Source: Methanococcus voltae PS
GTDB taxonomy: Archaea > AGJL01 > Methanococci > Methanococcales > Methanococcaceae
NCBI RefSeq assembly: GCF_024807035.1
Contig: NZ_JANUCQ010000001.1
Location: 309,990 to 373,989, forward strand
DNA length: 64,000 nucleotides
Direction of reading: 5' to 3'
The translations under genes were made by a program, and so were the position numbers. Below, in pieces: positions 53,533-56,063 of this stretch (positions are counted from its first letter, which is position 1; each line of letters starts with the position of its first letter). The notes under the pieces were generated by a model that was not told the DNA's origin, ran no database searches, and saw only the letters and a program-made list of their open reading frames with translations.

Positions 53533-53841
53533 ATGCAAAAAGCAAGAATAAAATTATCAAGTACAAAACATACAGAATTAGACGGTGTATGTGACCAAAT
53601 TAAAGCAATCGCTGAAAAAACAGGTGTTGATTTAGCAGGTCCAATTCCATTACCAACAAAAACATTAAAAGTTACAACAAGGAAGTCAACCGACGGTGAA
53701 GGTTCATCATCATTCGACAGATGGACAATGAAAATTCACAAAAGAGTTATCGACATCGAAGCTGACGAAAGAACCATGAAACACATCATGAAAGTAAGAA
53801 TTCCTGAAACCGTTCAAATTGAAATCGAATTAAGAAACTAA
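53533..53841 (+). CDS. rps10: Ribosomal protein S10 (uS10)
   Basis: A 102-residue 30S head protein. [43 protein letters not shown] and [34 protein letters not shown] are diagnostic. A weaker GAGG site precedes the ATG. It ends the operon; a T-run at 53888-53894 probably terminates it. Confidence 0.96.
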
Positions 53842-54119
53842 TTGAATAGTTAGTACTTAAAGATGTTTGATTCCAAGAATTGAAGGCTTTTTTTAAAAAT
53901 AATTAATATTTCATAAGCCATGAAAAATATTGTTTTCCCTTTATGGGATTTCAATAACCTTTTTCTTTTTAAATTATTTTAGTTTTTATTTTATTATCTT
54001 ATCATTACAGTATTTTTATTATTACCATTATTATTTTATTAGTATATTATTTCATAATTAATTTTATAACTCTCGTATATTCGAGTACCTTATTTAAATT
54101 TGATATGTTTTGATATTAA
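53842..54119. other. T-rich region after rps10
   Basis: The left part of the 509-base gap between the convergent rps10 and gltX genes. Seven T at 53888-53894 follow a short GGC and likely end the rps10 transcript. Further T-runs follow to about 53980. CTCG (54072-54075), six-base loop, CGAG (54082-54085) is a small stem just before the RNA gene described next. Confidence 0.5.
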
Positions 54120-54121
54120 TC

Positions 54122-54129
54122 TTTATATA
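54122..54129 (+). promoter_or_regulatory. TATA box of the tandem-hairpin RNA
   Basis: TTTATATA, a perfect match to the methanococcal box A. Archaeal transcription usually starts about 25 bases downstream, which here falls at 54148-54153, at the foot of the first hairpin. No reading frame follows. Confidence 0.6.
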
Positions 54130-54149
54130 CTATGAAATCAATGATTAAT

Positions 54150-54236
54150 TATACTGCAATTCACAGTAATTGCAGTGTATGTTGTGACCGTATTTCATAG
54201 TAAATACGGTGTATTATCTTTAAATGAGCTTTTTTA
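54150..54236 (+). ncRNA. Candidate small RNA with two tandem 9-6-9 hairpins
   Basis: Two perfect hairpins of equal build lie ten bases apart. The first has arms ACTGCAATT (54153-54161) and AATTGCAGT (54168-54176) round the loop CACAGT. The second has arms ACCGTATTT (54187-54195) and AAATACGGT (54202-54210) round the loop CATAGT. The arms differ in sequence but the loops differ in only one base, which suggests selection on structure and loop. A TATA box lies at the right distance upstream and six T (54231-54235 with the preceding T) follow. The predicted RNA is about 85 bases. I know no family with this pattern. Confidence 0.6.
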
Positions 54237-54274
54237 AAATAGTTTTGAACTTATTATGGAAATTTTATAAATTT

Positions 54275-54350: not shown

Positions 54351-56063
54351 TTAGTTATGTGTTAAATAGCAGGTTACTTTATTAACATCTGAATCCAATT
54401 CGTTTTTATCAATTCTAACAAATCCGTATCTTTCAAATTGTACGCTTTCATCTTCTTTTACAACTGCAAAGTCTTTTTCTGCATAACCTTCTGTTTCAAT
54501 ACCATCGCCATCGATAACTGAAACCTTAACACTATCTTTAACAGGTACCCAATGAATAATGTTTGCCCTATTCTCTTTTGCAACCTTGTAATCTTCACTA
54601 TCAAAGTGCGCATAAACAACGTTTTCGCTTACTTCATCAATAACTATGTTAAACAATTCCATAAGCCTATACATTTTACCTACTTCAACATTATCGGTAC
54701 CAGATAGGTAGATTTCCCCGTCAAATGTTAACGTTCTCATACCCATATCTTTATCAGGATGCATCCTTAGCTCAACAGTTTTATTGTCCGCACCTGTAAC
54801 AATAACTTTTTTAGGATTAGCCACAAAGAAGAATCTTTTTGTAATTGCATCAATTAAATCTTTGTTAACTGCATAAAGGTTTTCCCATGCAAATCTAACA
54901 TCAGCTTGTTTAATTCCGATATCGACCATTGTTTTGTAAATTGCTTCTGGTTTTATACCTCTTTTTCTCATTGCTCGAAGGGTACCTAATCTTGGGTCAT
55001 CCCAGTCAGAGTATTCACCTTCTAAGATACCAGCGTGCATTTTAGAGGTACTTAAAACAGGACCTTCTATTTTTAAGATACCGTAGTGTAAGTACTCTGG
55101 AATCTCCCAGCCCATGTAATCAAATATGTATTTCTGTTTTTCAGTGTTCACAATGTGGTCTTTTCCTCTTAAAACGTGTGTAAGACCCATTAAATGGTCA
55201 TCAACGGTAACAGATAAGTTCATAAGTGGGTAAACAACATACTTTGTTCCATTTTTAGGGTGTGACGTGTGTTCAATCCTGAATATTGGGAAATCACGTA
55301 CTGAAGGGTTTTTATGTGCAATATCTGTTTTTAATCTAACTGCAACGTTATCTAATTCTCCAGAAAGCATTTTGTTCCATAGTTCAAGGTTCTTTTCCGA
55401 ACTATTGTCTCTACATTTACAAGCTACTCCTTCAGCTTTTAATTCTCTAAATTCTTCCGCTTCACAATCACAAACATAAGCGTGACCCATTTCAATTAAT
55501 TTAGTACCATACTTGTAGTATGTTTCAAGTCTTTGAGATTGAATAACAACTTCATCAACTTTAACACCTAACCATTTTAAATCTTCCTGTATCATTTCAT
55601 AAGCTTCAGGAAGGACTCTTTTAGCGTCGGTATCTTCTAATCTTAATATTAATTTTCCATCGTATTTTTTAGTAAAGAAATCATTCAAAACACTTGCACG
55701 AGCGTGACCCAAATGAAGAGGTCCTGACGGATTTGGTGCAAATCTCATTACAACGCCTTTTTTTGTATCCACGTTTTTAAGCTCAATTTCTTTCTTTTTT
55801 CTTTCTTTTTTCTCGCCCATCATTTCTGGAGCAATTTCTGAAAGTTTTTGTTTCTGAGCTTCTAAACCCATATCTTCAACTTCTTTTGCAATTGCACTAA
55901 TGTTTTGATTAATGTCCTTTGCAAGTTTTCTTAAATCTGGGTTTTCACCTAACATTTTACCCATTATTGATTTAGGATTAGGTTTTCCGTCGTATTTTAT
56001 AGCATTTTGAAGTAAATACTTTATAACTACGTTTTTCACATCTTCCGAAAGTGTACTGTTCAT
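54351..56063 (-). CDS. gltX: Glutamyl-tRNA synthetase
   Basis: A 570-residue class I synthetase of the archaeal GlxRS type. The HIGH motif is [11 protein letters not shown] and the KMSKS-like motif is LSTSKMHAG; the C-terminal half is the beta-barrel anticodon-binding domain of archaeal/eukaryotic type. In methanogens this enzyme charges both tRNA-Glu and tRNA-Gln, the latter then amidated by GatDE. The first 100 residues are a helical appended region. GTGGTGTAATA precedes the ATG. Confidence 0.95.

Follow-up and report, generated by a model that had tools for sequence, protein, structure and literature searches.

A predicted single-copy gene for a small twin-hairpin RNA throughout the Methanococcota

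What occupies the gap between rpsJ (53533–53841, + strand) and gltX (54351–56063, − strand) in Methanococcus voltae? These two genes converge, as an earlier note on this DNA had observed, and that note read the pair of hairpins lying between them as an undescribed small RNA gene. The same inverted repeats could in principle belong to the end of the str operon, to a DNA site or to a short protein coding frame. Here the locus is described within the window (the whole 64-kb stretch of DNA under analysis) and compared across the Methanococcota, and a function is proposed for its predicted RNA.

Layout of the locus

All features given below are on the + strand. Hairpin 1 (54153–54176) consists of a 9-bp stem (54153–54161/54168–54176) and the loop CACAGU (54162–54167), and hairpin 2 (54187–54210) of a 9-bp stem (54187–54195/54202–54210) and the loop CAUAGU (54196–54201). 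Both are perfect, and a linker of 10 nt (54177–54186) separates them; the geometry and the loops (CACAGT and CATAGT in the DNA) are as the earlier note gave them. If 54150–54152/54177–54179 are counted as well, hairpin 1 is 12 bp long. None of 200 first-order Markov simulations of the 64-kb window produced perfect twin hairpins of this 9/6 form, which are not due to chance, and the 71-nt core folds with a z-score of −5.06.

The stems had been described as differing completely, which is wrong. The two hairpins, of 24 nt each, are identical at 17 of 24 positions and have a common stem arm, AC[T/C]G[C/T]A[A/T]TT, with three differences, each of which is compensated on the opposite arm. The hairpins are thus diverged copies of one unit. 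GTGTAT stands directly 3′ of both; the GUGUA-type tail of hairpin 2 is at 54211–54215 and its hairpin 1 counterpart at 54177–54181, a tail common to both hairpins in most members of the family.

A TATA box, TTTATATA, is present upstream at 54122–54129, as had been claimed, and is the promoter predicted from the sequence; the RNA would start at approximately 54150–54153. Downstream, the six Ts proposed as a terminator are present at 54230–54235 and are a possible 3′ end, but the run is not conserved, being found in genomes G000 and G002 and not in G006. The twin-hairpin element of G002 is identical to the window copy. In G006 the element differs little, while the surrounding gap sequence is scrambled and lacks the T-run.

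The earlier note had also pointed out that ACTATGAAAT (54129–54138) is the reverse complement of part of hairpin 2. It is indeed the exact reverse complement of 54192–54201, but it lies outside the predicted RNA, upstream of the predicted start, where it overlaps the TATA box. Of 35 genomes only 3, all M. voltae-like, retain it, and it may be a chance match or else serve as a feedback or operator site. A long alternative fold that uses ACTATGAAAT has the best energy for 54122–54240; it was rejected, as it needs upstream sequence and is available to only those three genomes.

Distribution in the Methanococcota

Twin hairpins were found at 19 of 19 Methanococcaceae loci examined, these being the regions downstream of rpsJ read in genera g1–g3. 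A covariance model (R1) was built from alignment A2, which comprises 17 of the rpsJ-downstream loci in these genera. The window copy, itself within the training set, matches R1 over a core at 54150–54216 (75.4 bits, E 3.7e-14). Across the phylum, R1 matched strongly and once in 35 of 36 genomes. Sixteen of these genomes were held out of training (14 Methanocaldococcaceae and 2 of genus g4) and matched at 57–73 bits; for these untrained genomes, Methanocaldococcus and the fourth genus of the family, E-values were 1e-12 to 4e-9. The sole genome without a match, G016, is an assembly of 80 contigs that is also without rpsJ.

Outside the Methanococcota, R1 found no relatives in three further archaeal phyla (23, 115 and 152 genomes), a search that had no positive control there. 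A covariance model of the single hairpin (R3), run on the genomes, gave no strong copies beyond the two twin hairpins per genome; the next-best sites, on inspection, are almost all within coding genes and chance-like. Comparison shows, throughout the Methanococcota, a single-copy gene predicted to encode a small structured RNA with a core of about 70 nt.

Covariation of the stems

The set used for covariation contains 35 sequences, 30 of them distinct. Its alignment was made by fitting to the model, which biases it toward the structure; a MAFFT alignment of the 17 training sequences agrees with it. Standard pairs fill 97.8 % of stem cells (98.5 % in hairpin 2), against 80.4 % in shuffles, and pairing falls below 50 % when the partner is slid by 1–3 columns. 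Double changes are seen at 15 of 18 pairs, 8 of 9 in hairpin 1 and 7 of 9 in hairpin 2, and the covariation score is 0.688 compared with 0.321 in shuffles. Energy minimization of the core gives the twin-hairpin fold for 32 of the 35 sequences.

Stem changes were also counted by parsimony on a protein tree from S10 and EF-1alpha, which is independent of the RNA. On it, 31 events are double and compensatory, 25 are single and pass through G-U, and 4 break a pair. Failure of the pairing arms to be kept among other methanococci had been named beforehand as a finding that would count against an RNA gene; the arms are kept in 35 genomes, and their extensive covariation strongly supports an undescribed small RNA gene whose structure is under selection.

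Conserved positions and comparison with known RNA elements

Every loop (70/70) fits the consensus C-R-N-R-G-U, with C1, R2, R4, G5 and U6 invariant to that pattern. The second stem pair is C-G in 70/70, the closing pair is pyrimidine–purine in every copy and the stem is invariably 9 bp, while linker sequence is free. Loop and stem length are constant while the bases of the stem drift, a pattern that suggests recognition of the loop by a protein at a defined spacing from the foot of the stem. Likewise, the presence of two hairpin units suggests that the protein partner would be a dimer.

The nearest parallel is with ANTAR targets. The dual hairpins that are substrates of EutV, NasR and AmiR have hexanucleotide loops, with A at position 1 and G at position 4, and are bound by a dimeric protein (PMC3369931). 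The elements described here are alike in having tandem hairpins with hexanucleotide loops (70/70), fixed loop bases, stems that vary yet remain paired, and a short linker; the linker here is 9–16 nt long, and 20 of 35 are within the upper limit of the 5–12 nt ANTAR-target range. They differ in the identity of the fixed bases (C1, R2, R4, G5 and U6 in place of A1 and G4), in stems of exactly 9 bp and in forming a stand-alone, single-copy archaeal gene. Position 1 is C in 70/70 loops and position 4 is G in 3/70, so the ANTAR loop rule fails and the RNA is not classed as a member. The ANTAR domain (PF03861) was detected in 0 of 41 genomes, with control genomes equally silent. Membership of the ANTAR system was rejected on the loop rule, alongside this lack of a domain match for which the controls too were silent.

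Iron-responsive elements have the loop CAGUGN plus a bulged C. The loops here are similar in that C1 and G5 of the six nucleotides could pair, which would reduce the loop to 3 nt and flip out the sixth base. The triloop bases are different and the stems are unbulged; CAGUGN occurs in 0 of 70 loops, all of which are CRNRGU, and the likeness is one of resemblance only. To our knowledge, the iron-responsive element has no archaeal counterpart.

Proposed function

The preferred reading, given a probability of roughly 0.55, is a single-copy small RNA that would titrate or scaffold a probably dimeric, loop-reading protein. In Methanococcus and Methanocaldococcus the RNA would have a promoter of its own; genus g2 (Methanothermococcus and relatives) may instead release it by cleavage at the 3′ end of the str transcript. 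The candidate protein would probably bind as a dimer with one subunit per hairpin, reading the loop, the closing pyrimidine–purine pair and the stem base at its fixed 9-bp distance, and would in turn be titrated or scaffolded by the RNA. Because the hairpin is absent at other genomic sites, a decoy would have no evident group of mRNA targets to compete with; the lack of further copies was counted both for protein recognition and against the decoy model. No partner protein was found: the ANTAR search was negative, with its controls silent, and Hfq is not universal. A more specific version, judged less likely than not, is that this is the RNA half of an undescribed, Methanococcota-specific ribonucleoprotein regulator, in which a CRNRGU dual hairpin captures a dimeric RNA-binding protein, as an archaeal counterpart, of independent origin, of the bacterial ANTAR and Csr-type RNA systems.

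The main rival is a trans-acting antisense small RNA whose loops would be seeds for pairing with mRNA, possibly with an Sm/Hfq-type chaperone. A separate gene with its own predicted promoter in several clades would suit such an RNA, as would exposed, conserved loops. However, no more than 6 successive unpaired bases are conserved, the third of them being free, and the purine and fixed positions are the same in the two loops, which fits recognition of shape better than pairing. The distribution of the chaperone bears both ways. Hfq (PF17209) exceeds the cut-off in almost every member of the Methanocaldococcaceae and in one g4 genome, the other g4 genome being just below, whereas none exceeds it in genera g1–g3 (Methanococcus and nearby), which carry the RNA. 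Hfq as a general partner was rejected since it is not detected in half of the clade. Antisense action is considered unlikely. The Hfq distribution was recorded under genomes G000–G008, G010 and G013.

Gene order and transcription

A second rival would place the hairpins in the str operon, to which rpsJ belongs, as a 3′-UTR, terminator or processing element, and not in an RNA gene. The location 3′ of rpsJ in genera g1–g3 is consistent with this, as is genus g2, in which no promoter motif is visible upstream and the hairpins of G015 and G018 begin only 25 nt past the rpsJ stop. In the Methanocaldococcaceae and genus g4, however, the element is elsewhere and not near rpsJ. Five loci, each in a different genome (L178, L179, L184, L186 and L192), have an upstream gene directed away from the RNA, so that its transcription would need a promoter within the gap. 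Moreover, rpsJ has its own separate hairpin and T-run in most genomes.

Promoter-like motifs also move along with the RNA. In 7 of 7 Methanococcus genomes a box, TTTATATA or TTTATAAA (TTTATAWA), begins 28–31 nt 5′ of hairpin 1; genome by genome, shuffle values are 0.03–0.17, so the argument from the TATA box rests on the constant spacing. Ten of the 14 Methanocaldococcaceae loci have a BRE/TATA-like motif, CCAAAAATNTTAAATAA, 5′ of the RNA; it lies only on that side and only on the RNA strand, occurs once per ~8 kb, and is retained in L188 and L191 despite a different upstream gene. Given AT-rich DNA, these motifs are statistically weak. Gene arrangement and the travelling motif together support the prediction of independent transcription, in line with the independent RNA that had been proposed from the window, and leave the str operon reading distinctly improbable. 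In L183 (G022) the promoter-like motif is ~320 nt 5′ of the RNA, with ~250 nt extra relative to sister genomes, suggesting an insertion between the motif and the predicted RNA.

Several features of the neighbourhood were seen in passing. In the Methanocaldococcaceae and g4 the RNA gene is mostly convergent with a gene for a THUMP-SPOUT RNA methylase (L180–L183 and L185–L193, which are most Methanocaldococcus loci and L186); the family was confirmed by Pfam in L187 (PF14419 and PF02926) and assigned at the other loci by sequence similarity. In L178 the RNA gene adjoins a pelota/eRF1-like gene, and neighbours are frequently translation-related. A second hairpin lies immediately 3′ of rpsJ in most Methanococcales (~53903–53965 in the window; L043 and L059–L069). 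It has the form (C)GTTGCAATC-TGANNNGTGAG-GATTGCAAC(G) followed by a T-run. Genus g2 has a changed version and the M. voltae-like group a degenerate one; the hairpin may be the terminator of the str operon or an element of the 3′ UTR that binds protein.

Strand of the product

A third possibility is that the inverted repeats are hairpin-like only in appearance and form a single-copy DNA element, such as a dif-like recombination site or an operator. One copy per genome, mobile gene order and 9-6-9 palindromes with an asymmetric core would all be compatible with it. The mismatches in the stems speak against it: across 35 genomes there are 30 G.U cells and 0 A.C cells, a strand bias that is not expected of DNA sites, and therefore the element is read as an RNA product of this strand and not as a DNA palindrome. 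Arm sequences also differ between the two palindromes of one genome, and stems are G+C rich in hyperthermophiles (0.63 in Methanocaldococcaceae, with flanks at 0.19), as expected for an RNA that needs to stay folded when hot. The DNA palindrome was rejected on the wobble-pair bias and is regarded as very unlikely. Scarcely credible is a small protein gene of 22 codons (54132–54200, MKSMINYTAIHSNCSVCCDRIS), which is open in three M. voltae-like genomes and has a C-x-x-C-C motif but was rejected as its frame is not conserved: across the RNA, any given + frame is open in at most 14 of 35 genomes, the start would precede the predicted transcript start, and G006 has three amino-acid changes versus one silent.

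Novelty and implications

Rfam 15 gave no match on the RNA in the window or at 13 related loci with E-values up to 5–10, and none in the whole 64-kb window at gathering scores. The RNA is not described in the open papers searched. Early screens of M. jannaschii (Klein 2002; Schattner 2002, cited in PMC3432209) predicted small RNA candidates that are unverified. By the description given there they come from an AT-rich hyperthermophile and were found partly by G+C bias, which the G+C-rich locus here would suit. The RNA family is absent from Rfam and is a candidate new family, set beside the 2002 candidates by description only.

We know of few archaeal small RNAs that are conserved phylum-wide with clear structural covariation. 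The twin-hairpin RNA is near-universal in its phylum, single-copy and present in workable organisms, for example in M. maripaludis-like genomes. Should the loop prove to be a signal recognized by a protein, it would point to a novel RNA-binding regulator of methanogens, for which the RNA would be a ready bait.
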